From an uncultured Thermoguttaceae bacterium (GTDB lineage: Bacteria; Planctomycetota; Planctomycetia; Pirellulales; Thermoguttaceae), in contig CALFBP010000036.1 of NCBI GenBank assembly GCA_937951625.1, positions 1-55,120 of the forward strand: DNA of 55,120 nucleotides. The letters are read 5' to 3'. The position numbers and the translations under genes were made by a program. Of the stretch, positions 2 to 22,316 are shown piece by piece. Within the stretch, counting starts at the first letter, position 1; every line of letters begins with the position of its first letter. The notes under the pieces were generated by a model that was not told the origin of the DNA, made no database searches, and was given only the letters and a program-made list of their open reading frames with translations.

Positions 2-2293
2 GAGCGCCGGGTGGCCCGCTTGCGCCGGCTGCGGCAAGCCGTAGGCGGCCTGGAGGTCCCCCGAGGTCAACCGTATCGACTGGAGATCACGGAGCGGGGC
101 CAGTTGGACAACGTGGCGCTGCGGCCCATGGCTCGACAAACGCCAGGCCCCGGGCAGATCGAAATCAAGGTGCGGGCCAGCGGGCTCAATTTCCGCGACG
201 TGTTGAATGTGTTGAATCTCTACCCTGGCGATCCGGGGCCGTTAGGCGGCGAATGCGCGGGCGAGATCGTCGCCGTGGGGCCGGGCGTGGAACATTTACG
301 GCCCGGCGACGAAGTGTTGGCCTTGGCCCCCGCGAGTTTCGCCAGCTATGCCACCACGTTGGCCGAATTCGCCGCGTTGAAACCGAACGGCCTGAGCTTC
401 GAACAGGCCGCCACCATTCCTATCTGTTTCCTGACCGCGCACCTTGCTTTGCGACGGCTGGGCAACATGCGACCGGGGGAGCGGGTGCTGATCCATGCGG
501 CCTCCGGTGGCGTCGGCCTCGCCGCGATCCAAATGGCGCGACGTGCCGGCGCAGAAATCTTCGCCACGGCGGGCAGTCCGAAGAAACGGGAATACCTCAA
601 GTCGCTGGGCATCGAGCACGTCATGGATTCCCGGTCCACCGACTTCGCCCGGCAGATTCTGGAAGTCACGGGCGGTGAGGGGATCGATTTGGTGCTCAAT
701 TCCTTGACCGGGGAGTCGATCGCCGCGAGCCTTTCGGTCCTCCGGCCCGGCGGACGGTTTTTGGAATTGGGCAAAACGGACCTCTGGGACCAGTCACGAG
801 TCGATGCGTTCCGTCCGGGCATTGTGTTCCACGCCATTGCCCTCGACCGGATGATGGCCGAGGAGCCGCAGACGGTAGGTCAGTTGATGCAAGAAGTGAT
901 GGCCGAGTTCACCGCCGGAAATTTGGAGCCATTGCCGCTGCGGAGTTTCCCCATGCCTCGCGTGGTCGAGGCCCTACGGCACATGGCCCGGGCCGAACAC
1001 GTCGGCAAAGTGGTGATCCAGGCCGTGGAAACCGCCGATGCTGGCGACGCCGGCCTGACGCTCCGTGCGGATGGAAGCTATCTCGTGACGGGAGGGCTTG
1101 GGGGGCTGGGGCTGAAATTGGCCCGGTGGCTCGTCGACCGGGGCGCCAAATGCCTCGTGCTCACCAGCAGGTCCGCTCCTTCCGAGGATGCCCGACAGAT
1201 CGTGGCGGAACTGGAAAGGTCGGGAGCCAAGATTGCGGTGCGGGCGTGCGATGTCAGCAAGCCTGAAGAGCTTGCCAAGGTGCTTGCCGATCTCCGGGGC
1301 GCCTTCCCACCGTTGCGCGGCGTGTTTCACCTCGCGGGCGTGTTGGACGACGGCGTGCTTCGGGAGCAGAACCGCGAACGCTTCGATCGCGTCATGGCTG
1401 CCAAGGTCCTTGGGGCCTGGAACCTGCACACGTTGACTCGGGACCAGCCGCTCGATTGGTTCGTCTTGTTTTCCTCGGCGGCGTCTCTCTTGGGCTCGCC
1501 GGGACAAGGAAATTACGCCGCGGCCAACGCCTTCCTCGACGCCTTGGCAGCCTGGCGGCGATGGCAGGGTCAGCCCGCGCTAGCCATCCAATGGGGCTCT
1601 TGGGCCGAAGTGGGCATGGCGGCCAGGCTCAAGGATGCCGAGGGGCGGCGTTGGTCGGCAACCGGTTGGGGCTGGATCGATCCCGCCCAAGGATTGCGTA
1701 CCATGGAGCAGTTGCTGCTCGAGGGCCGGGTGCTAGCGGGGGTTCTGCCCGTCGATTGGCCCAAGTTCTTCGAGCGGATCCCGGCCGGCAGCGAGCCGCC
1801 TTGGCTCCTGGAGATGGCCAAAGCGTCGCGCACCGAGGAAGCACAAGGCGGTTCGCCTGCCCTCTTGCAGACGCTCAAAAACGCCACAGCGTCCGAACGC
1901 CTCGACCTCGCCTTGGCCCAGGTGCGGCAGGCGGCTGCCCAAGTGTTGGCCATGGGCGATGGAGAACTGCCCGATCCCCGTCGTCCCCTGAATGAATTGG
2001 GTTTCGATTCGCTCACCGGCGTCGAGTTTTGCAACCGACTCGGACGGTCCATCGGCGAACATTTGAATCCGACGGTCCTCTTCGATCATCCCACCCTGGA
2101 AAGCTTGGCTGCTCACTTGGTCCGCGACATCCTCCGCTTGGAGACCGCCGTTGAACCAAGCCCGCGGCTAGATGCTTCAGACAGCGATGGCGATCAGGCC
2201 CGCGAGCAGGCCGTGGCCGAGGTCGAGTCCATGACCGAAGCGGAGATGGAGGCCTTGGTCGAGGCCCAGTTGGAAAAGCTGGGAAAACAGTAG
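2..2293 (+). CDS. Type I polyketide synthase, C-terminal part (ER-KR-ACP), 5' partial
   Basis: The frame is open to the left edge, so the GTG at 11 is probably internal and the KS/AT/DH part lies outside the window. Three domains are visible. An MDR-type enoyl reductase (about nt 70-1010) carries the NADPH-binding run ASGGVGLAA and a Tyr in NLYPG. A ketoreductase (about 1078-1620) has the Rossmann motif TGGLGGLG, an LDD motif (usually a B-type, D-hydroxy outcome) and a catalytic Ser/Tyr/Asn set in FSSAAS and GNYAAANAF. An ACP (about 1890-2130) has its phosphopantetheine Ser at 2009-2011 in LGFDSL. The ACP is followed by an acidic helical tail (EMEALVEAQLEKL) of the kind that acts as a docking segment to the next synthase. 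Together, ER and KR imply that this module makes a fully reduced unit if the missing DH is active. It lies 171 nt upstream of the hybrid PKS-NRPS, its likely acceptor. Family is certain; product unknown. Confidence 0.9.
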   Translation, partial: ERRVARLRRLRQAVGGLEVPRGQPYRLEITERGQLDNVALRPMARQTPGPGQIEIKVRASGLNFRDVLNVLNLYPGDPGPLGGECAGEIVAVGPGVEHLRPGDEVLALAPASFASYATTLAEFAALKPNGLSFEQAATIPICFLTAHLALRRLGNMRPGERVLIHAASGGVGLAAIQMARRAGAEIFATAGSPKKREYLKSLGIEHVMDSRSTDFARQILEVTGGEGIDLVLNSLTGESIAASLSVLRPGGRFLELGKTDLWDQSRVDAFRPGIVFHAIALDRMMAEEPQTVGQLMQEVMAEFTAGNLEPLPLRSFPMPRVVEALRHMARAEHVGKVVIQAVETADAGDAGLTLRADGSYLVTGGLGGLGLKLARWLVDRGAKCLVLTSRSAPSEDARQIVAELERSGAKIAVRACDVSKPEELAKVLADLRGAFPPLRGVFHLAGVLDDGVLREQNRERFDRVMAAKVLGAWNLHTLTRDQPLDWFVLFSSAASLLGSPGQGNYAAANAFLDALAAWRRWQGQPALAIQWGSWAEVGMAARLKDAEGRRWSATGWGWIDPAQGLRTMEQLLLEGRVLAGVLPVDWPKFFERIPAGSEPPWLLEMAKASRTEEAQGGSPALLQTLKNATASERLDLALAQVRQAAAQVLAMGDGELPDPRRPLNELGFDSLTGVEFCNRLGRSIGEHLNPTVLFDHPTLESLAAHLVRDILRLETAVEPSPRLDASDSDGDQAREQAVAEVESMTEAEMEALVEAQLEKLGKQ

Positions 2294-2464: not shown

Positions 2465-5400
2465 TTGGTAGATTCGGTTTCCGAACGCCTGGAGCGGATG
2501 AGTCCCTTGCAGCGGGCCGTGTTCGCATTGAAGGAGACGCAGGCCCGACTGGACGCGATCGAACGGCGGCAGAACGAGCCGATCGCGATCGTGGGGATGG
2601 CGTGCCGGTTTCCCGGCGGGGCCAACGATCCCGAGTCCTTTTGGCAATTGATGTGCAACGGCGTCGAAGCGATCCGAGAAATCCCCGCGGACCGCTGGGA
2701 CGTCGATGCCTATTTCGATCCCGATCCCACGGCGCCCGGCAAAATGAACACCCGCTGGGGCGGATTCCTCGAACGGATCGACGAGTTCGACAATCATTTC
2801 TTCGGCATCTCCGATCAAGAGGCGGCGCGGATCGATCCTCAACAGCGGATGCTCTTGGAGCTTGCCTGGGAATCGCTGGAGGACGCGGGCCTGCCCCCGC
2901 GGAGCCTTCGCGGCACGCGGACCGGCGTGTTCGTCGGTATTTCGGCGAGCGATTACGCCGTGTTGATGTGTGTCGACGGTCGGCAGACCGATGGTTATGC
3001 GGCGGCCGGCACGTCGCTGTGTCTGGCGGCCAACCGTATTTCGTTCGCCTTCGATTGGCATGGCCCCAGCATGGCGATCGATACCGCCTGCTCCTCGTCG
3101 TTGGTGGCCATCCACCTGGCGTGCCAGAACATCCGCCACGGCGAATGCGACATGGCCTTGGCTGGCGGGGCCAATGTGTTGCTCTCGCCCGCCGGGACGG
3201 TCAATTTGACCAAGGCCGGCATCTCGTCGCCGGACGGCAAGGTCCGCTCCTTCGACGCCGCGGCCGCCGGCTATGTCCGCAGCGAGGGCGCTGGGATCGT
3301 CGTTTTGAAACCCCTCTCCGCGGCCTTGAAGAACAGGGATCGCATTCGGGCCGTGATCCTCGCCAGCGCGGTCAATCAGAACGGCACGAGCAACGGCCAA
3401 ACGGCCCCGAGCCGATCCGCTCAGGAACGCGTGCTCCGCGAGGCCTATGCCCGAGCCAAGGTGTCGCCTGGCCAGATCCAATTCGTCGAGACGCAAGGCA
3501 CCGCCACGCGCCTGGGAGACGCGATCGAGGCGATGGCCTTGGGCACGGTGCTGGGTGAAGGCCGTGATCCTGGCTCGCGGTGCGTGATCGGGGCGGTGAA
3601 GACGAATCTCGGCCACTTGGAAGCGGCGGCGGGCGTGGCCGGGATCATCAAGACCGCCCTCGCCTTGGAACACCGTCAAATCCCACCCAATTTGCACTTC
3701 AACACCCCCAACCCGGACATTCCCTTTGATCGCTTGCCGCTCCGCGTGCCGCGAGCCTTGGAGCCTTGGCCACGTGGGAAGGACCCGCGATTGGCGGGGG
3801 TGAGTGCTTTCGGCTTTGGCGGCAGCAACGCCCACGTCGTACTCCAAGAGGCCCCGGAAGAAGAGCTTTCGGTCGAGTCGGACCACGGCCCGAGCCTTTT
3901 GCTCCTCCCGCTTTCGGCCCGCACGGAAAAAGCCCTCGGCGACCTGGCCGTGGCGTATCGGGAACTGTTGCGGGGCAATCCCCCGCGGTGGCGCGACCTC
4001 TGCTATACCGCGGCCTGCCGACGCGACCATCACGACTGCCGCATCGCCATCCTCGCCTACTCGTGCGATCAAGCGGCGAAACTGCTGGCCGAGCTTGTCG
4101 AGCGTCAAACGGCGGGGGGGCTTGAAGGCGTCGCCACAGAACCGTGGATGCTTCCACCGCCCGGCTCGGTAGGAGCAGCAGAGCCAAGGACCGCCGGGCC
4201 GGGGGTGGCGGTGGGGCGTCGGCCCTACGGCCGTGATCTGAAGGTCGCCTTTGTTTTTGGCCATACGCCCTCGGGAGGGCCGGACCTCGTCAAACGACAA
4301 CTCGACGTGGCCGCTTGGTGGCGAAGCCTCGGAGTGGTCCCAGAGATCGTGCTAGGCTGGGGCGTGGGCGAATTGGCCGCCGCCAGCGTGGCGGGCATCT
4401 TGAGTGCGGATGAAGCGATGCAGCTTGCCGCTGATCCTTCGGTCGCCGAAGCTCTTGACCCTGCTTCCCGTACTGCGGCATTGCCTTTCGTATCCTCCGT
4501 GGACGGAAAACTGCACCGCGGCAACGACCTACCCAACGCGCACTGGCGGCGAGCGCTGGAGTCGCACGACGGCTGGAACGCCGCTATGGCTGTCCTCCGT
4601 GATCGCCGTATGGACTGCTGCATGCAAATCGGTCCAGGCCAACGGGAAATCGACGTTTCTGGTTGGACCAATGCCGAGGGGCGAGGCGTTGAGGTGCTGG
4701 CAACGTCGGCCCGTGGCGCGGACGTGGACGCGCTTTGGACGCTGGGTCGCCTCTATGCCTTGGGAGCGGACATCCGTTGGGAACATGTGGCGCCGTCGGA
4801 TGGTCGCTGTGTTCGCCTACCGACTTATCCGTGGCAGCGTCGGCGGTTGTGGGCCGTGCATCGCGACGCCCTGGCTCATGCGCGTTTGCCGAATAGGCCC
4901 GGGGCCGAGGGCCTATCAAACCAAGGCCAGGCTGCATCGGGTAAGCGAAGTGAGGCGGGCAACATCGAGGCCCACCAGCCCGCCGTCCGCCCCCGACCTG
5001 ATTTGATCGTCCCCTACGTCGCCCCGCGCAATCAGGTCGAATCGGAAATTGCCCAGGCATGGATGAGCGTCTTGCGGCTGGACCGGGTGGGCATCCACGA
5101 CAATTTCTTCGAGCTGGGCGGCGACTCGCTCCAGGTGGCGATCCTGCTCAATCGGCTTCGGGAACGGTTGGGAGTGGCCATCCCAGTGCGGGAAGTGTAT
5201 GAAACGCCCACGATCGCCCGGCTGGCGGAGTGCATCGGGTCAAGGGACATGGCGGTCCGCGATGGCGAGACGATTCCCCGCGTGCCGCGCGACGGCCTGT
5301 TGCTGCCGTCGCTGACTCAAGAAGCCCTGTGGTTCCTCGACCAGTTGGAGCGGGATCGGCCGACCTACACGATCTACTCGCCGATCCGCATTCGAGGTCC

Positions 5401-8400
5401 TTTGGACGTGGCCTTGGCCGAGCGGGCGTTGAACGAGATCGCGCGGCGGCACGAGGTGTTGCGGACCACGTTTCCCGAGATCGACGGACGTCCCGTGGCG
5501 AGGATCGCCCCGCCGGAGTTTCGCCCCTTGCCTGTCGTGGATTTGAGCCATTTGCCAGAGGCCGAGCGGCGCGAGGCGCTTCACCGCGGAATCAGTGAGG
5601 AAATGGACCGGCCGGTTGACCTCCAACGGGGCCCCTTGATTCGCATCACGCTCTTCCGCTTGGGGAACGAAGACCACGTGGCGGTCCTCAGCACGCACCA
5701 CATCATTTACGACGGCTGGTCGATGGCGGTGTTGCTGCGGGAACTGACCGCGCTGTATGGGGCCTACCTGACGGGCCAACCTTCGCCATTGTCGGAGTTG
5801 CCCATCCAATACGCCGATTTCGCGGCCTGGCAGCGGAACCAGCTCCGCGGCGAACGGTTGGAATCGTTGCGGGCGTATTGGCGTAACCAGTTGTCTGGCG
5901 TGGCGCCGCTGGCCCTCCCCACCGACCACCCCCGTCCCGCTGTCCGCTCCACGCGCGGAGCCGTCCACACCGCGCATCTTTCGGAAGCAACGGCCAAGGC
6001 CGTGGCGGAGTTTTGCCGTCGCGAGGGGGTGACGCCGTTCATGGCCTTCTTGGCCGTGCTGGAGGTCCTCTTGCACCGATGGAGTGGTCAGGACGATTTC
6101 GCCGTGGGCACGCCGGTGGCCAATCGCACTCGGCCGGAAACCGAGGCCTTGATCGGCTATTTCGTCAATGTGTTGGTCCTGCGCGGCGATCTCTCCGGTT
6201 CGCCCACGTTCCGCGAGTTACTAGCGCGGGTCCGGCAGACGACGCTGGCGGCTTACGAGCATCAGGAGATGACGCTGGATCAAGTGGTCGAGGCGGTCAA
6301 TCCGCCCCGCGACCTCGGCCGTCATCCTTTGTTCCAGGTCATGTTCGCCCTGCAAAACTTCGAGTTGGCGGCGACTGAGCAATTCGGCCTGACGCTTTCT
6401 CCCCTCGAAGACGGCCCGGTGGCGAGGCTTTCCTTCTTCGACCTGACGCTGGAATTGTGGCCCGCGGGCTCTACGTATCGGGCCGACTGGTATTTCGCCA
6501 CGGACCTGTTCACGGCTGCGACCATCGAGCGCATGGCCGCGCAGTTCGAGAACCTGGCGGCGATGGCGGTCGCCCAGCCCGATCGTTCAATCGACGAGTT
6601 GCCTTTAATTGATGAGGCCGAACGCCATCGCCTGCTGGTCGAGTGGAACCAAACGGCCAGGCAGTACCCGCAAGAACAATGCATCCACGAATTGTTCGAG
6701 GAGAAAGCAACCGCGGTGCCGGACGCCTTGGCCGTGGTGCTCGGCGATGACCGTTGGACGTATCGAGAGCTTAACGAACGTGCGAATCAACTTGCCTGGC
6801 TTCTGCGGGCCGAGGGAGTCGGTCCGGAGGTACGCGTGGGGATTTGCCTGCCCCGTTCGCCCGAGTTGTGGATGGCGGTGTGGGGGGTGCTCAAGGCGGG
6901 CGGGGCCTACGTCCCCTTGGATCCCACCCATAGCCGGGACGCGACTGAGCGATCGGCCTATATCCTTCGCGAATCGGGCGTCGCGCGGATCGTGACTTGC
7001 CAATCCGTGGTTGCGTCGCTCGACCCGGGCGGCGTTCCCACCATCGTGCTCGATGGCGAGGCAGCCGCCCGGCTCCGCGTCCAATCCACGGAGAATCCGC
7101 CCAAGACAGCGTCGGCAGAAAACCTGGCCTACATCCTGTACACCTCAGGCTCGACCGGGCGGCCCAAGGGCGTGATGGTCACGCATCGGAACCTGGTCAA
7201 CGCCTACTACGGGTGGCAGGACGCCTACGGCCTCGGGGGCGCAGCGGCCCCGGACCACGAACGGCCGCGTTCGCACCTCCAAATGGCCAGCTTCGCCTTC
7301 GACGTGTTCGTTGGCGACACGGTGCGGGCCCTTTGCTCGGGCGGAAAATTGGTCATCTGTCCTCAGGAAATGCTGCTCGATCCGGAACGGCTGATCGAAC
7401 TGATGCGCCGCGAGGAAGTGGACATCGCCGAATTCGTCCCTGTCGTCTTTCGCGAACTGATCCAGTATGCGGAACAGCACAACGAGTCGTTGGACTTCTT
7501 TCGCCTGGCGATCGTCGGCTCCGATGCCTGGTACGCCGCGGACCACCGCCGGGCACGCGCCGTCTTGGGACCGAAACCACGGCTCGTGAATTCCTATGGA
7601 TTGACCGAGACCACGATCGACAGCACGTATTTCGAGGGCGACGCGGAGGGGCTGCCCGACACGGCGATGGTGCCCATCGGTCGCCCGTTTCCCAATGTCC
7701 GGCTGTATATCCTCGATGCCCGAATGCAGCCGGTGCCGGTGGGAGTGCCCGGCGAGCTGTACATCGGCGGCGATGGCGTCTCCCGGGGCTATGTGAATCC
7801 AGAGGCCAACGCCGGGCGATTCGTGGTTGACCCCTTCGTCGGCAAGGGGGCGAAGCTGTTTCGTACCGGGGATCGGGCCCGCTGGCGAGCCGACGGACAG
7901 GTGGAGTTCCTAGGCCGGGCCGACGATCAGATCAAGATTCGGGGATTACGGATAGAACCGGGCGAGATCGAGCAGTGCCTGCGCGAGCACCCCAAGATCG
8001 CCGAGGCCGCGGTCGTGGTGCGCAATCGGGCGGCGGGAGATGCCCGGCTGGTGGCTTATGTGGTCGGTAACGACGGCCCCCCTCCCGACGTCGTCGAAAC
8101 CCGGCGGTTCCTTGGCCAACGACTGCCCGACTACATGATCCCCTCGGCCGTCGTCGCGCTGGAGGCTATGCCGTTGACCAACAGCGGGAAGATCGACCGT
8201 CGGGCCTTGCCAGAACCCGATTGGGAGCGCTCGTCGCTCTGCGGCGCATACGTGCCGCCCCGTAACGAACTCGAAGAAAAACTGGCGGCGATCTGGCGCG
8301 ACGTTTTGAATGTCCAGCAGGTAGGCGTGGAAGATAACTTTTTCGACTTGGGCGGAAGCTCGCTCTTGGCGCTTCGCTTGGCATCTCGGGTGCGGACCGA

Positions 8401-9418
8401 GTTGGGGGTGGATTTACCGCTAGTTGCCTTGTTTACCTCGCCGACCGTGGCCGGACTGGCAGCCGTGATTCAGGATTTGCCTACATCGACCGATCGCGTG
8501 GCCGAGGCACCGCCGGTCGATCCCCTGCGGTGGCTGGACGCCTTCGTATTACACGGCTACGGCGAGGCCGACGCCATGGCGGCCCTGCGGTCTTCCAACC
8601 CCGTGCAAGGTCCAGGTCGATCGCTGGTGCCCCTTCGGACCGAGGGGACTGAGCAATCTTTGTTCTGTGTTCACGGGCTGGGCGGGCACGTGGCCTGTTT
8701 CCTGCCGCTGGCGCGGGCACTTCCGCAGGGGCGACCCGTGTACGGATTTCAGGCGCTGGGGCTTGACCCCGACGAACAGCCGCACGAAACGATCGAGGCC
8801 ATGGCCACGCAGTACGTGAGCGAGATGCGGGAAATCCAGCCCCAGGGGCCATACGTGGTGTGCGGATGGTCCTTGGGCGGAGTGATTGCCTTGGAAATGG
8901 CCCAGCAGCTCGCCACCCAAGGGCAAACTGCGGCCTTAGTGGCCATGCTCGATTCGTATCTCTCGACAAAAGAGGTCGAGAGCCTCGATTGGGACGAAAG
9001 CTCGGTGCTCCGCTGGATCGCCCCGCACCTAGGTTTGGAGCTAGCGGACTTGAAGCGGCTGTCGCTCGACGAGCAATGGGAACGAATCGCGGAAGAGGCG
9101 AACGTGGCTCAAGGGATTGGGGTGGCGGAAATTCGGCGGCTGGCCGCGGTCTGCCGGACCCAACTCGCGGCGGCCAGCCGATATCGCCCCAAACCTTACG
9201 CGGGTCGGGTGGTGCTGTTCCGCGCTGGCCGGGCCAGCGGTGTGTGGGACGGTCGATGGCGGTCGCTCTGCCCGGCCTTGGAGATCGAGCACGTCCCGGG
9301 CGACCACTACAGCATCCTTCGGCGGCCCGACGTGGAAACGCTCGCCGAACGCTTGGATCGTTACCTCCGCACCGCGATGGAGATGCGGATCGCGTCCCAC
9401 GGAAATGCCACACGGTAG
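2465..9418 (+). CDS. Hybrid PKS-NRPS: KS(H-to-Q)-degenerate AT-carrier-C-A-PCP-TE
   Basis: The TTG at 2465 is preferred because GGGAGG (2453-2458) sits 6 nt upstream and the protein then opens with the usual PKS helix; in-frame ATG 2426 and TTG 2420 are alternatives. Domains by nucleotide: KS 2580-3860 (nucleophile Cys 3089-3091 in DTACSS; HGTGT is replaced by QGTAT at 3494; second His kept in NLGHLEAAAG); a shortened AT-like region 4230-4850 whose GHSxGE motif is GWGVGE (4355-4372); a carrier protein with Ser 5126-5128; a condensation domain with HHIIYDG (5696-5716); an adenylation domain about 6680-8230 with YTSGSTGRPKG and NSGKIDR; PCP Ser 8360-8362; thioesterase with GWSLGG Ser 8870-8872, Asp near 8951 and His near 9305. 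The A-domain pocket reads DVGEIGSID plus the invariant Lys, the code recalled for L-ornithine. Predicted role: load Orn, acylate it with the upstream polyketide, and release or cyclise it. Domain order is certain; substrate is inferred. Confidence 0.95.
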   Translation: MVDSVSERLERMSPLQRAVFALKETQARLDAIERRQNEPIAIVGMACRFPGGANDPESFWQLMCNGVEAIREIPADRWDVDAYFDPDPTAPGKMNTRWGGFLERIDEFDNHFFGISDQEAARIDPQQRMLLELAWESLEDAGLPPRSLRGTRTGVFVGISASDYAVLMCVDGRQTDGYAAAGTSLCLAANRISFAFDWHGPSMAIDTACSSSLVAIHLACQNIRHGECDMALAGGANVLLSPAGTVNLTKAGISSPDGKVRSFDAAAAGYVRSEGAGIVVLKPLSAALKNRDRIRAVILASAVNQNGTSNGQTAPSRSAQERVLREAYARAKVSPGQIQFVETQGTATRLGDAIEAMALGTVLGEGRDPGSRCVIGAVKTNLGHLEAAAGVAGIIKTALALEHRQIPPNLHFNTPNPDIPFDRLPLRVPRALEPWPRGKDPRLAGVSAFGFGGSNAHVVLQEAPEEELSVESDHGPSLLLLPLSARTEKALGDLAVAYRELLRGNPPRWRDLCYTAACRRDHHDCRIAILAYSCDQAAKLLAELVERQTAGGLEGVATEPWMLPPPGSVGAAEPRTAGPGVAVGRRPYGRDLKVAFVFGHTPSGGPDLVKRQLDVAAWWRSLGVVPEIVLGWGVGELAAASVAGILSADEAMQLAADPSVAEALDPASRTAALPFVSSVDGKLHRGNDLPNAHWRRALESHDGWNAAMAVLRDRRMDCCMQIGPGQREIDVSGWTNAEGRGVEVLATSARGADVDALWTLGRLYALGADIRWEHVAPSDGRCVRLPTYPWQRRRLWAVHRDALAHARLPNRPGAEGLSNQGQAASGKRSEAGNIEAHQPAVRPRPDLIVPYVAPRNQVESEIAQAWMSVLRLDRVGIHDNFFELGGDSLQVAILLNRLRERLGVAIPVREVYETPTIARLAECIGSRDMAVRDGETIPRVPRDGLLLPSLTQEALWFLDQLERDRPTYTIYSPIRIRGPLDVALAERALNEIARRHEVLRTTFPEIDGRPVARIAPPEFRPLPVVDLSHLPEAERREALHRGISEEMDRPVDLQRGPLIRITLFRLGNEDHVAVLSTHHIIYDGWSMAVLLRELTALYGAYLTGQPSPLSELPIQYADFAAWQRNQLRGERLESLRAYWRNQLSGVAPLALPTDHPRPAVRSTRGAVHTAHLSEATAKAVAEFCRREGVTPFMAFLAVLEVLLHRWSGQDDFAVGTPVANRTRPETEALIGYFVNVLVLRGDLSGSPTFRELLARVRQTTLAAYEHQEMTLDQVVEAVNPPRDLGRHPLFQVMFALQNFELAATEQFGLTLSPLEDGPVARLSFFDLTLELWPAGSTYRADWYFATDLFTAATIERMAAQFENLAAMAVAQPDRSIDELPLIDEAERHRLLVEWNQTARQYPQEQCIHELFEEKATAVPDALAVVLGDDRWTYRELNERANQLAWLLRAEGVGPEVRVGICLPRSPELWMAVWGVLKAGGAYVPLDPTHSRDATERSAYILRESGVARIVTCQSVVASLDPGGVPTIVLDGEAAARLRVQSTENPPKTASAENLAYILYTSGSTGRPKGVMVTHRNLVNAYYGWQDAYGLGGAAAPDHERPRSHLQMASFAFDVFVGDTVRALCSGGKLVICPQEMLLDPERLIELMRREEVDIAEFVPVVFRELIQYAEQHNESLDFFRLAIVGSDAWYAADHRRARAVLGPKPRLVNSYGLTETTIDSTYFEGDAEGLPDTAMVPIGRPFPNVRLYILDARMQPVPVGVPGELYIGGDGVSRGYVNPEANAGRFVVDPFVGKGAKLFRTGDRARWRADGQVEFLGRADDQIKIRGLRIEPGEIEQCLREHPKIAEAAVVVRNRAAGDARLVAYVVGNDGPPPDVVETRRFLGQRLPDYMIPSAVVALEAMPLTNSGKIDRRALPEPDWERSSLCGAYVPPRNELEEKLAAIWRDVLNVQQVGVEDNFFDLGGSSLLALRLASRVRTELGVDLPLVALFTSPTVAGLAAVIQDLPTSTDRVAEAPPVDPLRWLDAFVLHGYGEADAMAALRSSNPVQGPGRSLVPLRTEGTEQSLFCVHGLGGHVACFLPLARALPQGRPVYGFQALGLDPDEQPHETIEAMATQYVSEMREIQPQGPYVVCGWSLGGVIALEMAQQLATQGQTAALVAMLDSYLSTKEVESLDWDESSVLRWIAPHLGLELADLKRLSLDEQWERIAEEANVAQGIGVAEIRRLAAVCRTQLAAASRYRPKPYAGRVVLFRAGRASGVWDGRWRSLCPALEIEHVPGDHYSILRRPDVETLAERLDRYLRTAMEMRIASHGNATR

Positions 9419-9557
9419 GCACGGCTGCTCGAGGTTTTGCGAAAATCGTTTCGGAAAACGCCGTCCACGACAGTGGAGGCGACGGGAACAAGGACGGCTT
9501 TTCCAGTCCAAACCACGGCCAACGGAGGGCATCGGGAATTGAACACACGGTGACTTG

Positions 9558-11294
9558 ATGAAACTGATCCTCTTGTTGCTTCGGGCCTCGTGGCGGATCG
9601 TCCTGCTGGCGAGTCTGGTGGGCGCGGTCAGCGGCGTGGCCAGCATGGCGCTGATGGCCTGGATGTTCAGGGCCTTGCAGCGACCGGGCGAGTCCTCGTC
9701 GCTTGGGGTGTGGCTGTTCGCGGCTTTGTGCGGGGTGGTCTTCCTGACACGGATCGCTTCCCAAGTGCTTTTGGCCCGGCTCACGCAAAACACCGTGTCG
9801 CGGCTGCGCATGGGTTTGTGCGAACGGATTCTGGCCAGCTCCCTACGGCATTTGGAAGAGATCGGCGTGCATCGCATGCTTAGCGCGCTGACGAACGACG
9901 TCGCGGCGGTGACGAACGTCATGAACGTGGTGCCCAGCCTGGTAGTCAGCTTCGTGGTCCTCGTGTGCGGCGCGGTTTACCTGGGCTACCTGTCGTTGGG
10001 ATTGTTGGGCGGGGCGGCGGTGTTTGCCCTCTTCGGCATCGTCGTCTACGTGTATTTTGCGAAATTTGCCCGAGGATACATGCGCCGTGGCTGGCAGGCC
10101 CAGGAGCAACTGTTCCAAGCAATTCGAGAATTGCTCGGCGGGGTGAAGGAGCTTAAGACGCACGGCGAGCGGCGGCGGGCCTTCCTCGATCGGGTCTTGA
10201 GGCCGGCTGAAGCGACGGTCCGTGAAAACAAGTTTCTGGGCGATTGCCTTCACAATGCGGCCATCGCCCTGAGCCGGCTGATGTTCTTCGTAGCTCTCGG
10301 GATGCTGGTGTTCGCTTGGCCACGGATTCAAACCGTGGATGGGCCCACCCTGACCCTCTACGCCATGGTGTTCATGTTCCTCATGTCCCCGCTCGACCAA
10401 ATCATGGGCGCGTTGCCATCCATGAAATGGGCCGCTCTGGCGGTAGGAAGGATCGAACAACTCGGACTCATGCTCCACCAGGTCGCGGCCGAGCAGACCG
10501 TCGCCCAGCCCCTGGCCCCTTGGCAGACCATCGAGTTGGTTGGGGTGACGCACGCCTATCGTCGGGAGGGCCGCGAGCATGGGTTCGTGCTCGGCCCGAT
10601 CCACGCAACCATCCGTCCTGGCGAAATCCTCTTCATCGTGGGCGGTAACGGCAGCGGCAAGACGACGTTGGTGAAATTATTGACCGGCCTTTACGTTCCC
10701 GAGCAAGGCGAAGTGCGGCTCGATGGCCAGCCTGTCACCGACGAGAATCGGGAGAGCTATCGACAACTGTTTTCCGTGGTGTTCGATGATGCCGCGGTGT
10801 TCGCCAGCCTTTGGGGATTGGAATCGGCGGACTTGGACCGTCGCGCGGGCGAATACTTGCGCGAATTGGAACTCGATCACATTGTGCGCGTCGATCACGG
10901 CAAATTCTCCACGACGAACCTCTCCCGGGGGCAGCATAAACGCCTGGCCCTCCTCACTGCCTATCTCGAAGACCGGCCGGTGTACGTGTTCGACGAATGG
11001 GCGGCAGATCAAGATCCATCTTTTCGCAAAGTGTTTTATCTGCGCATTTTGCCTGAGTTGAAGCGCCGAGGCAAAGCCGTCGTAGCCGTCACGCACGACG
11101 ACCGCTATTTCCATGTAGCCGATCGCATTGTAAAACTGGAAGAAGGAAAGGTTGTCGATTCGTTCGTCCCCGAGCGGCTTTCCGATGGGACGGTTGATCC
11201 GCGTTTGCGGGGCATCGTTGGCGCCGCGGCGGAGGTCCCGTTTCACCCTGCTGTTGCTCGCGAAGAGCCGATTTCCAGCGTCGAGAAGGCGTAG
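9558..11294 (+). CDS. Cyclic peptide / siderophore-type ABC exporter (SyrD/PvdE family)
   Basis: This is a fused half-transporter of 578 residues. It has an N-terminal six-helix membrane domain (about residues 1-310) and a C-terminal ATPase with Walker A GGNGSGKTTL, signature LSRGQHKRLAL and Walker B VYVFDEWAADQDP. The DEWAADQDP form is typical of the PvdE/SyrD cyclic-peptide transporter branch, which moves NRPS products or their precursors across the inner membrane. ATG 9558 is preferred to the overlapping TTG 9555. The gene lies 139 nt after the thioesterase-containing synthase on the same strand, which supports export of that synthase's product. A general lipid or peptide exporter role cannot be excluded. 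Confidence 0.88.
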   Translation: MKLILLLLRASWRIVLLASLVGAVSGVASMALMAWMFRALQRPGESSSLGVWLFAALCGVVFLTRIASQVLLARLTQNTVSRLRMGLCERILASSLRHLEEIGVHRMLSALTNDVAAVTNVMNVVPSLVVSFVVLVCGAVYLGYLSLGLLGGAAVFALFGIVVYVYFAKFARGYMRRGWQAQEQLFQAIRELLGGVKELKTHGERRRAFLDRVLRPAEATVRENKFLGDCLHNAAIALSRLMFFVALGMLVFAWPRIQTVDGPTLTLYAMVFMFLMSPLDQIMGALPSMKWAALAVGRIEQLGLMLHQVAAEQTVAQPLAPWQTIELVGVTHAYRREGREHGFVLGPIHATIRPGEILFIVGGNGSGKTTLVKLLTGLYVPEQGEVRLDGQPVTDENRESYRQLFSVVFDDAAVFASLWGLESADLDRRAGEYLRELELDHIVRVDHGKFSTTNLSRGQHKRLALLTAYLEDRPVYVFDEWAADQDPSFRKVFYLRILPELKRRGKAVVAVTHDDRYFHVADRIVKLEEGKVVDSFVPERLSDGTVDPRLRGIVGAAAEVPFHPAVAREEPISSVEKA

Positions 11295-11386: not shown

Positions 11387-12661
11387 ATGAAGAAGTCGCT
11401 GTTCTTTTTGGTGGTCGCCCTGCTGGGGATCTGGCTTGGCGTGCATTGGTGGCACACAGCTTCGGCGGACCGGCCCGAGTTTCGCACCACCCCCGTCGCA
11501 CGCGGCGATCTCGTCATTGCCGTGAGCGCGACGGGAACGGTCGAGCCGGTAGAGACGATCGACGTCGGGGCCCGCATCCCGGGCATGATCAAGAATTTCG
11601 GCCCCGATCCGAACCAGCCGGGAAAGACGATCGGACACAACTCGCGGGTCAAAAAAGGGGACATCCTCGCCCAACTCGACGACGCCCCGCACCAGGCGGA
11701 CCTCAAGAAGGCCATCGCCAACCTCAAGCTCGCCGAGGGCGAACTCGCCCGCGCCGAGGCCCGCTTGAAGCAGGCGGAGCGGGCCTATCGCCGAGCTAAA
11801 GTGCTGATCGGCACGAACTCCGACGCGGACTACGAAAACGCCGAGGCCACGTATGAAATCACCAAAGCGGAAGCTATGACGGCAGCCGCCAAACTGGAAC
11901 TAGCCAAGGCCGCCAAGGAGGAAGCGGAGATCCAACTGGGCTACACCGTGATTCGCTCGCCGGTCGACGGTATTGTGATCGACCGCCGCGTGGAGGTCGG
12001 CCGGACCGTGGTGGTCGGCCTGAACGCCCCCAGCCTTTTCCTCCTGGCCACGGACTTAAGCCACATGCAAGTTCGGGCAGCAGTCAATGAAGCGGACATT
12101 GGCGACATTCGGGTAGGCCAGCCGGTGACCTTCAAGGTCGACGCCTGTCGGGATCAAACGTTCTACGGCACCGTCTCCCAAATCCGTTTGAACGCGAGCA
12201 TGGTCCAGAATGTGGTGATGTTCGACGTGGTGGTCGACGTGGACAACACCCATCAGAAGCTCCTGCCCTATGTGACCGCCAAGCTGCAATTCGAGGTCGC
12301 CCGACGCTCCGACGTCGTGTTGGTTCCGAACCAAGCCTTGCGTTGGCAGCCCACGCTGGCCCAGGTCTCGCCCGCGGTGAGGCGCGAGCTGCCCCCCTCG
12401 GCCCTGCGCGATGCCCTGGATGCCTCGGGCGAGGCGGAGGCGAAGAAGGTGGAATTCGATACGCCCACAGTTTGGGTTGTCGCCCCCGACGGCTTCGTCC
12501 GGCCGATCCACGTCCAAACAGGGTTGTCCGACGGGATCAACACCGAGATCACCGGCGGAGACCTCCAGGTCGGCACCCCCATCGTGCTCAACGCCGTGCG
12601 CGAGGCCCAACCAGATTTCGTCAAAAGCTTCATTTCCCAAGTGATCAACGCGAAGAAATGA
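11387..12661 (+). CDS. MacA/HlyD-type periplasmic adaptor subunit
   Basis: A 424-residue membrane-fusion protein. A single N-terminal membrane anchor (about residues 3-22) is followed by a split lipoyl/barrel-sandwich region. The first half is near the GTVEPVETIDVGARIPG segment, and the second is near the GYTVIRSPVDGIV segment, where it closes. A coiled-coil hairpin rich in Ala, Glu and Lys (about residues 95-185) separates them. A beta-barrel (VRAAVNEADIGDIRVGQPV) and a C-terminal membrane-proximal domain follow. It would link the MacB-like ABC protein encoded 86 nt downstream to an outer-membrane channel; no TolC-type gene is in the window. The two genes are co-directional with the biosynthetic genes, so a tripartite route for the cluster product or for self-protection is the simplest reading. 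Confidence 0.88.
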   Translation: MKKSLFFLVVALLGIWLGVHWWHTASADRPEFRTTPVARGDLVIAVSATGTVEPVETIDVGARIPGMIKNFGPDPNQPGKTIGHNSRVKKGDILAQLDDAPHQADLKKAIANLKLAEGELARAEARLKQAERAYRRAKVLIGTNSDADYENAEATYEITKAEAMTAAAKLELAKAAKEEAEIQLGYTVIRSPVDGIVIDRRVEVGRTVVVGLNAPSLFLLATDLSHMQVRAAVNEADIGDIRVGQPVTFKVDACRDQTFYGTVSQIRLNASMVQNVVMFDVVVDVDNTHQKLLPYVTAKLQFEVARRSDVVLVPNQALRWQPTLAQVSPAVRRELPPSALRDALDASGEAEAKKVEFDTPTVWVVAPDGFVRPIHVQTGLSDGINTEITGGDLQVGTPIVLNAVREAQPDFVKSFISQVINAKK

Positions 12662-12747
12662 GCCGCAAGGCCGAGCGGGCGGTCCCCCTGTTCTGGCTGC
12701 CGTGGTAGCTGTAGCCCCTGCTCCCCTGGAAACCCTGATTCGCTTCC

Positions 12748-14868
12748 ATGCCCCTGATCGTCCTGGAGCACCTCAGTAAGACCTACCGCGTGGGTGACAT
12801 CGACCTCGTGGTTCTGAAGGATATTTCCTTGACCATCGAGCGGGGAGAATTCGTGGCATTGATGGGGGCCTCCGGTTCGGGAAAGACCACGCTGATGAAC
12901 CTGCTGGGGGGCCTGGACCAGGCGACCTCGGGATCGTACTTGTTCGACGGCGTGGAAATCACCCGCCTCTCGCCCGAGCAGTTGGCCGTGTTGCGGGGCA
13001 GTCGGATCGGGTTTGTTTTCCAGAATTTCAATCTGCTTCCCCGGGTCAGCGCGCTGGACAATGTGCTGATGCCCACCGCGTATTCCGCGCACAACGGCAG
13101 GCCACGCCAAGTATATCAACGGAGCCGCGAGCTGTTGACCACGGTCGGTCTGGAGGCCCGTCTCGACCATCCCCCCAGCAAGCTTTCTGGCGGCGAACAA
13201 CAGCGGGTGGCGATTGCCCGGGCCTTGATCAATCAGCCCACGCTGCTGTTGGCCGATGAACCGACAGGCAATCTGGATTCGCGGACGGGCAAGGAAATCC
13301 TCCAACTTTTCCGGCGGCTGAACGTGGAAAAGGGAATCACCTTGCTGCTGGTGACGCACGATCCCGAGGTCGCTCGCGCCGCGGACCGCATCGTGCGGAT
13401 TGCCGATGGGCAGATCGTGGAAGACATGCGTTTGGACGAAAAAGCCACCACGGTCACCACCCCCTCAACGCCACCCGACCCGCAGGACGGCAGCTCCCCA
13501 AAAACCAAACCGGCCTCGCCCTCTTTGCCCTCGCGTCGGGCGAGGAACACCTTTCGTGTGGCGGCAGGGGCCGTCCAGATTGCCTTGCAAGCCTTGCAGC
13601 GGAACGTGATGCGCACGGTGCTCACCATGTTGGGGGTGATTATCGGCGTGGCCGCGGTGATCGCCATGATGGAGATCAGCCAAGGGGCCTCCAAGGCCAT
13701 TCAATATACGGTGATCAACCTGGGGGCCAACACGCTGGCCGTGCAGGCGGGTGCCCCCCGGAGCGGCGCGCCCCGTTTCGGCGAACGACTCGACACGCTC
13801 ACGCCCGAGGACGTGGAGGCGATCCAGCGGGAGTGCCCGGCCGTGGTCTGCGCAGCCCCCATCGTCACCGCGCGGGCGCCGGTGGTGTTTGGGAATCGCA
13901 GTTGGGTGCCGGGGTATCTTGCGGGAACCACCGAGGCGTTTCTCGTCGCGCGGAATTGGACGGACCTGGAATTGGGCCGCATGTTCAACGAGCGCGAAGT
14001 CGCCGGCGCGGCCAAGGTGTGCGTGATCGGGCAAACCCTGGTCCGCGAATTGTTCCAAGGACGGAACCCCGTCGGCCAGGACATCCGCATCCGCAACGTG
14101 CCCTTCACGGTCATCGGCGTGCTCAGTCCCAAGGGTGCGAATCTGCTGGGGGTGGATCAAGACGATTGCCTTCTGGCCCCGTGGACAACGGTCAAATATC
14201 GACTCAGCGGGGGCGGTTCAGGCTCGGCGGTGCCCCGCGACCTGGCTCGCTCCCTGCCCGGCCGTCCGCAGGCCGAACGCCTTCCCGGCCGACCGCAGGC
14301 GATCCGTAGCGAAACGATCGGGCAGATTTTGGTGAAGGCCAAGTCGCCGCAAGCCGTTCCCGTGGCTGTGGACCAAATCACCCGACTGCTCCGCGATCGG
14401 CACCGTCTCGAAGAAGGAGAAACCGACTTTCGCATCTACGACATGGCCGAGGTGACGAACGTCTTCAAGAGGACGGTCCAAATGCTCTCCGGCCTGGCCA
14501 TGGCCATCGCGGCCGTGTCGCTGACTGTCGGCGGGGTGGGGATCATGAACATTATGCTCGTATCGGTCACCGAAAGGACCCGCGAAATCGGGCTCCGCAT
14601 GGCGGTGGGCGCCGACGCCCGCGACATCCTCCGCCAATTCCTCGTCGAGGCCGTGGTGCTCTGCCTGGTGGGCGGTTTGATCGGGATTTTCGCCGGTCGG
14701 GCTGGTTCGTTCCTCGTGGGGGCGGTGATGGGCTGGCCCACCGCGACCTCGACCAGCGCGGCAATCGTCGCCGTGGCGGTCTCGCTTACCGTGGGCATCA
14801 TCTTCGGCTACTATCCGGCATGGAAGGCCTCCCGGCTAAACCCCATCGACGCGCTCCGCTATGAATGA
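12748..14868 (+). CDS. MacB-like ABC transporter, fused ATPase and permease
   Basis: A 706-residue protein with an N-terminal ABC ATPase (Walker A GASGSGKTTL, signature LSGGEQQRVAIARAL, Walker B LLLADEPTGNLDSRTG). A Pro/Ser/Lys-rich linker (about residues 230-270) leads to the first membrane helix (TMLGVIIGVAAVIAMM), a large periplasmic MacB_PCD domain, and three C-terminal FtsX-type helices. The architecture matches MacB, which drives mechanotransmission of substrates from the periplasm through MacA. It is longer than the usual roughly 650 residues; part of the excess is the linker and a small duplicated segment (nt 14254-14300). It forms an obvious pair with the adaptor gene upstream. The substrate is inferred from the neighbourhood only. 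Confidence 0.92.
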   Translation: MPLIVLEHLSKTYRVGDIDLVVLKDISLTIERGEFVALMGASGSGKTTLMNLLGGLDQATSGSYLFDGVEITRLSPEQLAVLRGSRIGFVFQNFNLLPRVSALDNVLMPTAYSAHNGRPRQVYQRSRELLTTVGLEARLDHPPSKLSGGEQQRVAIARALINQPTLLLADEPTGNLDSRTGKEILQLFRRLNVEKGITLLLVTHDPEVARAADRIVRIADGQIVEDMRLDEKATTVTTPSTPPDPQDGSSPKTKPASPSLPSRRARNTFRVAAGAVQIALQALQRNVMRTVLTMLGVIIGVAAVIAMMEISQGASKAIQYTVINLGANTLAVQAGAPRSGAPRFGERLDTLTPEDVEAIQRECPAVVCAAPIVTARAPVVFGNRSWVPGYLAGTTEAFLVARNWTDLELGRMFNEREVAGAAKVCVIGQTLVRELFQGRNPVGQDIRIRNVPFTVIGVLSPKGANLLGVDQDDCLLAPWTTVKYRLSGGGSGSAVPRDLARSLPGRPQAERLPGRPQAIRSETIGQILVKAKSPQAVPVAVDQITRLLRDRHRLEEGETDFRIYDMAEVTNVFKRTVQMLSGLAMAIAAVSLTVGGVGIMNIMLVSVTERTREIGLRMAVGADARDILRQFLVEAVVLCLVGGLIGIFAGRAGSFLVGAVMGWPTATSTSAAIVAVAVSLTVGIIFGYYPAWKASRLNPIDALRYE
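14254..14300 (+). repeat. 20-nt direct duplication inside the macB-like gene
   Basis: Two 20-nt copies, 14254-14273 and 14281-14300, differ at two positions and are 7 nt apart. They encode LPGRPQA-ER-LPGRPQA in the periplasmic domain. The spacing keeps the frame, so the duplication adds residues without breaking the protein. MacB proteins do not usually have this Pro/Arg-rich loop. Confidence 0.8.
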
Positions 14869-14918
14869 CGACCAGGAAGCGTTGAGAAAGCTGGCCCGAT
14901 CGTCCCAAGGTTGACGCC

Positions 14919-16253
14919 ATGGCGCATTATGCTTTGCTTTGCCCTGACGAGGCAGGACATCTCTTGTCCAATGGCCAAGTGGCGCGGGAGCTGGTCCGCC
15001 GCGGACACGAGGTGACGGTCATCGGTCGGGCCAAGTCCGCCCCCGTGGTCCAACGCCTAGATCTGCCGCTTCATGCCCTGAATATTCGTGGGATTCGCTA
15101 TCCGTTTCATCCGCTGTGGTGGGCGTTGTTCACGGCGGCGGGAGCGCCTTCGTTGGCGGTGATCCGGGACTTGTTTCGCTTCTACGCCGAAGAGTATCTC
15201 CGACTCCTGCCGCAAGCCCTAGCAGAGTTGAAGGTCGATGGCGTGCTGGCCGACCATACGGTCTCAGCCGCGGGCACCGCCGCGGAGCGAGCAGGCTTGC
15301 CCTTTGTGACGATCTGCTCGGCCCTGCTTTGGCACGAAGAGCCCTGCGTCCCGCCCCCCTTCACCCTTTGGCCCTATCGGCAAACCGCCCCAGCACGGCT
15401 CCGCAACCGCTTGGGCTACGCCGGATTCCATTGGTATTTCGGGCCCGTGTTCCGAAAGATCAATCGCTGGCGCCGGGCCTGGAATCTGCCGCCTTTGCGG
15501 CATTTCGACGAGGCCTATTCACCGCTGGCCCAGATTTCCCAATTGTGTTCCGATTTCGATTTTCCCCGCAGCAATCTGCCCGACGTTTTCCATTACATCG
15601 GCTCGCTGACCACGGCCCGCGCGGACCCAGCAGACCCCGCGTTTCCTTGGGAGCAACTGGACGGTCGGCCGTTGATCTTCGCCTCGCTGGGCACGGTCGC
15701 CTTTCCTGCCAACGCCCGCGTTTACCGCATCATCGCCGAGGCCTGCGCGGGCCTCGATGCCCAGTTGGTGCTCGCCTTGGGCCGATGGAACGAGCAGCAG
15801 ACGCGATTCAAGCAGCAGCTTGGCCAATTGCCGGGCAACCCTCTGGTCGTCGAATTCGCGCCGCAATTGGCCGTGTTGGATCGGGCGGCCTTGCTGATTA
15901 CCCATGGGGGAGTGAATACCGTGCTCGAGGCCATTTGTCGCGGCGTGCCGATGGTGGTCCTCCCCCGTAACGGCGACCATTTCGGTATGGCGGCCCGCGT
16001 CCGCCACCACGGCCTTGGCCTATGCGCCTCCTTTGGCCGGACACGGGCTGACGCCTTACGATGCATGGTCCAGCAAATCTTGGCCGACGACGGCTACCAA
16101 GCGCGATCGCGAGAAATGGGAAAGTTGTTGCGGGATGCTGGAGGGGCTGCGCGGGCCGCGGAGATCGCCGAGGAAGCCCTAACCACCAAAAGGCCAGTCT
16201 TGGACAAAACCCGAAACCGAACCCGCACCTCCGCCGCGCACGCGGGGTCGTGA
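14919..16253 (+). CDS. GT1-family glycosyltransferase (UGT/MGT-like)
   Basis: A 444-residue GT-B fold enzyme. The N-terminal half opens with MAHYALLCPDEAGHLLSNGQ and contains the acceptor-side EEYLRLLPQALAELKVDGVLADH. The C-terminal half has the nucleotide-sugar binding motif: FASLGTVAF, then FAPQLAVLDRAALLITHGG and NTVLEAICRGVPMVVLP. Members of this branch (including zeaxanthin glucosyltransferase and macrolide glycosyltransferases) move a sugar from UDP- or dNDP-sugar onto lipophilic acceptors. AAGG at 14907 precedes the ATG. It is the last + strand gene of the cluster, 50 nt after the macB-like gene, so tailoring of the PKS-NRPS product is likely, but a carotenoid acceptor is possible. Confidence 0.85.
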   Translation: MAHYALLCPDEAGHLLSNGQVARELVRRGHEVTVIGRAKSAPVVQRLDLPLHALNIRGIRYPFHPLWWALFTAAGAPSLAVIRDLFRFYAEEYLRLLPQALAELKVDGVLADHTVSAAGTAAERAGLPFVTICSALLWHEEPCVPPPFTLWPYRQTAPARLRNRLGYAGFHWYFGPVFRKINRWRRAWNLPPLRHFDEAYSPLAQISQLCSDFDFPRSNLPDVFHYIGSLTTARADPADPAFPWEQLDGRPLIFASLGTVAFPANARVYRIIAEACAGLDAQLVLALGRWNEQQTRFKQQLGQLPGNPLVVEFAPQLAVLDRAALLITHGGVNTVLEAICRGVPMVVLPRNGDHFGMAARVRHHGLGLCASFGRTRADALRCMVQQILADDGYQARSREMGKLLRDAGGAARAAEIAEEALTTKRPVLDKTRNRTRTSAAHAGS

Positions 16254-22287: not shown

Positions 22288-22316
22288 GGCACCTTCACGA
22301 ACTCAAGCGAATCCCC

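Follow-up and report, generated by a model that had tools for sequence, protein, structure and literature searches.

A putative non-elongating ketosynthase with a co-decayed acyltransferase at a PKS-NRPS junction in planctomycetes

The function of non-elongating ketosynthases (KS0s) is known mainly from trans-acyltransferase (trans-AT) polyketide synthases (PKSs). A KS0 is a ketosynthase (KS) without the first catalytic His (PMC5764310). Decarboxylative condensation is described as needing the His of the HGTGT motif (PMC4661987), and loss of this His ends condensation while the active-site Cys still transfers the chain (PMC8456789, PMC5764310, PMC4661987). HtmA1 KS3 of the hangtaimycin pathway has Cys-Asn-His and acts as a transacylase without elongating (PMC8456789); like KS9 and KS11 of the phthoxazolin pathway (PMC5764310), it keeps the Cys, has lost the first His, and passes its chain to a downstream carrier. 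The terminal KS0s of the chlorophyte MicPKS2, OluPKS3, and OtaPKS1, which have also lost the HGTGT His, are expected to be non-elongating and have been proposed to act in release or transfer (PMC4661987). CalA3, the chain-release module of calcimycin, combines a non-condensing KS with a cis AT in which Ser is replaced by Gly (PMC10006239).

Here, we describe a KS that carries Gln in place of the HGTGT His, designated KS(Q), from a window of 55,120 nucleotides (the whole stretch of planctomycete DNA analyzed) that begins at base 1 of contig C36 in an assembly of 4.6 Mb and 105 contigs. Judged from its sequence and those of its relatives, KS(Q) is with high likelihood a KS0 that lies where a PKS meets an NRPS; its cis AT has decayed as well, and the unit is conserved in one genome group. 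It shares the kept Cys and lost first His with HtmA1 KS3 and with phthoxazolin KS9 and KS11, although HtmA1 KS3 has Asn at the position of the Gln; and unlike the trans-AT KS0s, which have no cis AT, KS(Q) groups with the KSs of AT-bearing modules and is followed by the wreck of a cis AT. The chlorophyte KS0s differ in having Ser for His, a shifted Cys motif, and a position before a hydrolase-like domain (PMC4661987). CalA3 is the nearest analogue for the decay of the AT, yet it keeps Cys-His-His where the first His of KS(Q) is Gln, has no ACP, and itself makes a C-N bond; both subdomains are present in the CalA3 AT, whereas the AT of the KS(Q) module, judging by its length, lacks much of one (PMC10006239).

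The KS-AT didomains of CurL (4mz0) and DEBS are among the closest solved sequence relatives of KS(Q). The CurL and DEBS modules condense, whereas the KS(Q) module has lost both the His and the AT. In the KSQ loading domains of PikA1 (7uwr) and GfsA, too, a KS with a substituted Gln is followed by an AT; in our alignment, however, the Gln of PikA1, whose KSQ role is decarboxylating, replaces the Cys, whereas KS(Q) keeps the Cys and has lost the His. We rejected a KSQ loading domain because the active-site Cys is present in KS(Q). A structure prediction based on six close sequences was poor (mean pLDDT, 46.2; pTM, 0.42), with the KS below 50 and the AT remnant mostly at 70 to 90 pLDDT, and a fold search with this model, which returned KS-AT didomains, including those of CurL and DEBS, at TM-scores of about 0.3, was given no weight.

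Catalytic residues and gene context

The hybrid gene (2465..9418, + strand; Pfam, open reading frame, and relatives) has the architecture KS(Q)-psiAT-PCP-C-A-PCP-TE. Its frame is open from a TTG at 2420 and is 2,332 residues long; the TTG at 2465 is likely the start codon, as relatives show Met there. An uninterrupted KS containing DTACSSSLV, VETQGTAT, and NLGHLEAAAG is encoded at 2579..3859 (+; Pfam ketoacyl-synt N and C). The codons of the active-site Cys (TGC, 3089..3091, +) and the second catalytic His (CAC, 3614..3616, +) are retained, and a Gln codon, CAA, lies at 3494..3496 (+). In a HMMER alignment with the three solved sequences that matched best, 7zma (two KS domains), 4mz0, and 7uwr, the Gln falls beneath the HGTGT His and the motif is free of gaps. 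Translation, codons, and alignment together confirm an earlier note, made from the sequence of the window, that this is a KS whose first His has become Gln and whose Cys and second His are kept; the HGTGT His is replaced and the Cys retained, as in a KS0 in the broad sense. The same note had also pointed to a Gly-to-Ala change beside the Gln. That change is present (QGTAT), although it does not belong to the KS0 hallmark: it is private to the window, with QGTGT in all eight other Gln-bearing relatives, and since HGTAT occurs in His-bearing KSs as well (L027 to L030 and L048), the Ala carries little weight and we rejected a meaning for it.

Behind the KS lies a shortened, inactive AT remnant (4241..4642, +), for which the Pfam AT match covers positions 70 to 114 of 319 and is below the cut-off. 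A functional cis-AT extension module has the GHSxGE Ser and a full-length AT, and the window has neither; the motif reads GWGVGE at 4355 to 4372. The post-AT linker motif, LPTYPWQRRRLW, is retained (4817..4852, +). Next come a carrier, PCP1 (LGGDSL with intact Ser; 5015..5242, +), the presumed acceptor of the transferred chain; an NRPS condensation (C) domain (5312..6637, +) with an intact HHIIYDG at 5696 to 5716; an adenylation (A) domain (6695..8191, +); a second carrier, PCP2 (LGGSSL; 8249..8473, +); and a thioesterase (TE; 8657..9358, +) with GWSLGG at 8864 to 8881, all recognized by Pfam.

In the gene neighborhood, an ABC transporter (9555..11294, +) adjoins the assembly line, and an ABC transporter gene is likewise found 3' of the hybrid gene in the related locus L039. 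HlyD-like, MacB-like, and UDP-glycosyltransferase-like genes follow (11387..16253, +). The UDP-glycosyltransferase-like gene, at 14919 to 16253 beside the export genes, suggests a glycosylated product, and both export and glycosylation are predictions from the gene content. Farther downstream (19342 to 24926), two adjacent large DUF4350/ABC_transp_aux proteins are apparently unrelated to the cluster.

Upstream, the 3' part of a reducing PKS (ER-KR-ACP) occupies 2..2293 (+; Pfam KR, ADH, and PP-binding, and alignment to L039). This gene is split by a contig break (window position 1 and L079:12788-17032): its 5' part ends contig C1, its 3' part starts C36, and alignment with the L039 orthologue indicates that about 30 residues are missing between them. 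At 8 of 9 loci, KS(Q) is preceded by a gene for a FAAL-like AMP-binding protein with carrier and by a PKS gene in which KS and AT motifs were recognized; in L043, neither FAAL nor PKS was found within 10 kb upstream, and L044, in the same bin, has both. The full KS-AT-DH-ER-KR-ACP order was scanned in L039 and its last third in the window; five other upstream PKSs match L039 in length (2,192 to 2,291 residues), and part of that of L132/L133 lay within the stretch examined. An N-terminal docking-like helix, RLERMSPLQRAVFALKETQARLDAIERRQNE (2486..2578, +), is recognizable in all nine KS(Q) proteins with the pattern RLxx(M/L)(S/T)P(L/M)QRA...LK(E/Q)TQxRL, and V(E/Q)xM(S/T)xxE(M/I)xA occurs at the C termini of the seven upstream PKSs shown. 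The two look like a docking pair on the basis of these patterns, and we take the helices to resemble class 2 docking domains.

Distribution, phylogeny, and conservation

We gathered KS domains by homology from 40 related loci and from those genome-search matches that came with a locus, which merged to 118 unique domains after identical sequences were collapsed and at least about 330 aligned residues were required. The HGTGT site is Gln in 9 of these and His in 109. The second His is His in all 118, and the Cys site is Cys in 117, including all nine Gln KSs, and Ser in one, L037. The latter, another planctomycete KS (L037:1501-2769), keeps the first His beside a degenerate AT (GFGTGE). The nine Gln KSs (the window, L039, L040, L041, L042, L043, L044, L132, and L134) come from eight genomes, one bin containing both L043 and L044, and encode the Gln by CAA or CAG; several carry multiple locus ids, and the identities G1088 = G460 and G1108 = G754 were inferred from identical coordinates. 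We also observed that the KS(Q) gene of L042 (L042:9869-13928) is divided between two overlapping frames, perhaps by an assembly frameshift.

Clade members occur in at least 2 of 99 relatives and 2 of 397 genomes of the class, in at least 1 of 288 genomes from the phylum of G458, and in at least 4 of 149 genomes from the family of G459 and 4 of 396 from the order. The window's own genome is counted in the samples that included it, and the counts are lower bounds because genomes recur between samples and scoring was limited to a few candidates per genome. The unit thus looks rare and patchy. A DNA pattern for E[T/A]QGT[G/A]T, used to look for convergent Gln in 397 genomes that represent part of the class, matched in 28, among which the only KS-frame loci were those of the window and of G242, itself a clade member; the pattern is blind to other flanking residues. 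L043 and L044 are two distinct KS(Q) modules in one MAG labeled Verrucomicrobiia, which may reflect either horizontal transfer or mis-binned planctomycete contigs. In the literature searched, which left subscription journals mostly outside, "QGTGT" with ketosynthase gave no match, and the KAS I mutant H298Q was not found among the matches listed.

For the phylogeny, 5 of the 118 domains, with less than 40% identity or too short, were excluded, leaving 113, and residues around the first His were masked; the tree was midpoint rooted. The nine Gln KSs form one group (ultrafast bootstrap, 100; SH-aLRT, 100), Gln arises by one change on the tree, and the nine-member grouping appears in 100% of 200 bootstrap trees; the nine share a common origin. 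A 14-row set (99/90) adds L125, L107, L108, L013, and L015, all five with His. The earlier note had suggested a phylogenetic placement; in this tree, which has several long branches and includes no named trans-AT KS0, the nine group with KSs of AT-bearing modules (99/90). KS(Q) looks like a product of the cis-AT lineage, separate from the trans-AT KS0s. The KSs of eight upstream PKS genes form a separate group (100/99), so KS(Q) is not a recent copy of its neighbor, and we rejected that origin.

The decay of the AT extends across the clade. Gly replaces the GHSxGE Ser in 8 of 9 Gln modules (the window, L039 to L044, and L132), and one, L130/L134, keeps the Ser (GESAGE). Pfam AT matches are confined to parts between positions 17 and 121 in L039 to L043, to a weak 67-111 in L044, and to 32-104 in L134, where the stretch ended; L132 has none at 1e-5. 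The distance from the AT motif to PxYPW is 134 to 161 residues in the six Gln modules that could be measured (the window, with 159, L039, L040 [as L080], L041, L043, and L044) and 250 to 255 residues in eight intact-AT modules in which both motifs were found; the AT is thus about 90 to 120 residues short in 6 of 9 Gln modules. The missing stretch, as we presume from AT anatomy, holds the catalytic His. With the AT gone, the case for non-elongation is stronger than from loss of the KS His alone. AT loss by itself is no proof of non-elongation because L107 and L125 keep the KS His beside an AT that is shortened and has Ser replaced by Gly; judged by sequence, a trans-acting AT might also supply malonate. 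These two dead, short ATs lie in L136:6265-15981 (G253) and L137:6721-10650 (G581), and the modules are possibly half-way stages or AT-less extension modules. L013 and L015 have an intact AT and the KS His; the AT of L108 is not readable.

KS(Q) is gap-free over 425 columns in eight sequences, with a mean identity of 0.70 (0.697) versus 0.43 for the linker and AT remnant; in the intact upstream counterparts, the KS identity is 0.743 and that of the AT region 0.602, so that conservation of KS(Q) falls somewhat short of that of the working KS (0.697 versus 0.743). By the Nei-Gojobori method, KS(Q) has a dN of 0.19 to 0.26 and a dS of 1.2 to 1.5 (window pairs, one saturated), and the upstream KS has 0.17 to 0.20 and 1.2 to 2.7, respectively; the ratios are rough because synonymous sites are near saturation. 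These values point to clear purifying selection on KS(Q), slightly weaker than on the working upstream KS. Invariance of the Gln is weak evidence alone, as 179 of the 425 KS columns are also invariant in eight members.

Proposed route of the acyl chain and competing explanations

The most probable reading by a wide measure is that KS(Q) is a non-elongating KS0 in a dead-AT module that hands acyl chains from the PKS to a PCP and on to the NRPS. We infer acyl transfer, the lack of condensation, the direction of flow, and the product from sequence. The FAAL with its carrier and then the KS-AT-DH-ER-KR-ACP PKS would assemble a reduced acyl chain tethered to the ACP of the PKS; the docking helices would bring this ACP to KS(Q), whose Cys would accept the chain. 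As KS(Q) lacks the HGTGT His and the module has no working AT for malonate loading, decarboxylative condensation would not follow; the chain would move from the KS(Q) Cys to the module's own PCP1, the C domain would transfer it to the nitrogen of the A-domain amino acid, perhaps an ornithine-like one, and the TE would release the product. The earlier note had proposed a non-elongating gatekeeper that passes chains from the upstream ACP to the NRPS half. This proposal gains support from the Gln in 9 of 9 sequences, a cis AT that is both dead and shortened, a KS under purifying selection, the intact PCP Ser, the intact HHxxxDG C domain, and the conserved docking helix. Its route toward the NRPS stands with one refinement: the acceptor probably lies in the same module as the KS, namely its PCP, and this PCP would feed the C domain.

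KS(Q)-psiAT may instead be only a scaffold for dimerization and docking, the chain reaching PCP1 or the C domain without passing through the KS Cys. The module has lost two catalytic functions, and CalA3 shows that dead domains can be kept for structure (PMC10006239), yet all nine sequences retain the Cys and the second His, and conservation of the KS greatly exceeds that of the dead AT (0.70 versus 0.43), which makes this unlikely. Fainter still is the prospect that KS(Q) elongates, with Gln replacing His in function and malonate supplied by a trans-acting AT. Neighboring dead-AT modules that keep the His leave room for AT-less extension in this lineage, but the His, which decarboxylative condensation is described as needing (PMC4661987), is absent in 9 of 9.

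We give a similarly slim chance to a CalA3-like KS(Q) that itself forms an amide or hydrolyzes the chain. The CalA3 AT also has Ser changed to Gly and its module does not condense, the H332A variant of CalA3 increases hydrolysis 3.4-fold (PMC10006239), so that hydrolysis by a His-less KS is conceivable, and CalA3 entries were among the matches of the poor structure model. CalA3 chemistry is nevertheless unlikely here because CalA3 keeps Cys-His-His and H332A loses amidation (PMC10006239); moreover, the protein of the window comes with a C domain (HHIIYDG) and a TE of its own. Least credible of all is a sequencing error or decaying pseudogene. CAA is one base from CAC or CAT, and the window alone would be insufficient to exclude an error, but the Gln recurs in nine sequences with two codons, under purifying selection and, in the window, within the long open frame. 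Nine concordant sequences from eight genomes led us to reject an error at 3494.

Possible origin and use of the putative hand-over module

What follows KS(Q) varies among the members. The AT remnant and a carrier with intact Ser come first and lead, in the window and L039, into C-A-PCP-TE. Additional C domains lie 3' of the KS(Q) carrier in L040, L044 (incomplete), and L132, and L041 has a separate NRPS gene after the KS(Q) module. A sulfotransferase domain follows the carrier in L042, L043, and L134/L135, which form a supported subgroup of the tree (99/96); Sulfotransfer_3 was observed directly after the carrier at L042:11340-13928, L043:9716-13942, and L135:1-2064. The window A-domain pocket, read by eye against GrsA positions, is D-V-G-E-A-V-S-I-D. 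The type D-V-G-E-x-x-S-I-D, which we take to be near ornithine codes, is common to A domains of the window, L039, L040, L132, and L135, and the pockets of L044, L041, and L043 differ from it. Our guess from these readings is that the product is an N-acyl amino acid lipid, perhaps glycosylated. Among the matches listed for literature on non-elongating or inactive KS and AT modules or on planctomycete PKS/NRPS clusters, a search that left subscription journals mostly outside, the KS0-psiAT-PCP architecture was not recognized.

We lean, by a modest margin, toward the broader proposal that planctomycetes (and the bin labeled Verrucomicrobiia) turned an extension module of the cis-AT type into a dedicated PKS-to-NRPS adapter, KS0-psiAT-PCP, independently of the trans-AT KS0s. 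In this proposal, the adapter acts as a portable acyl-handover unit that later gained varied partners downstream, among them several sorts of NRPS module and a sulfotransferase. It is possible that loss of the AT preceded loss of the His, and neighbors with a dead AT plus His or an intact AT plus His offer a natural series for the order of function loss. Annotation in which each KS stands for an elongation step would overshoot the products of these clusters by two carbons. If true, a natural and conserved acyl-handover module derived from a cis-AT system would be useful for connecting PKS with NRPS lines.
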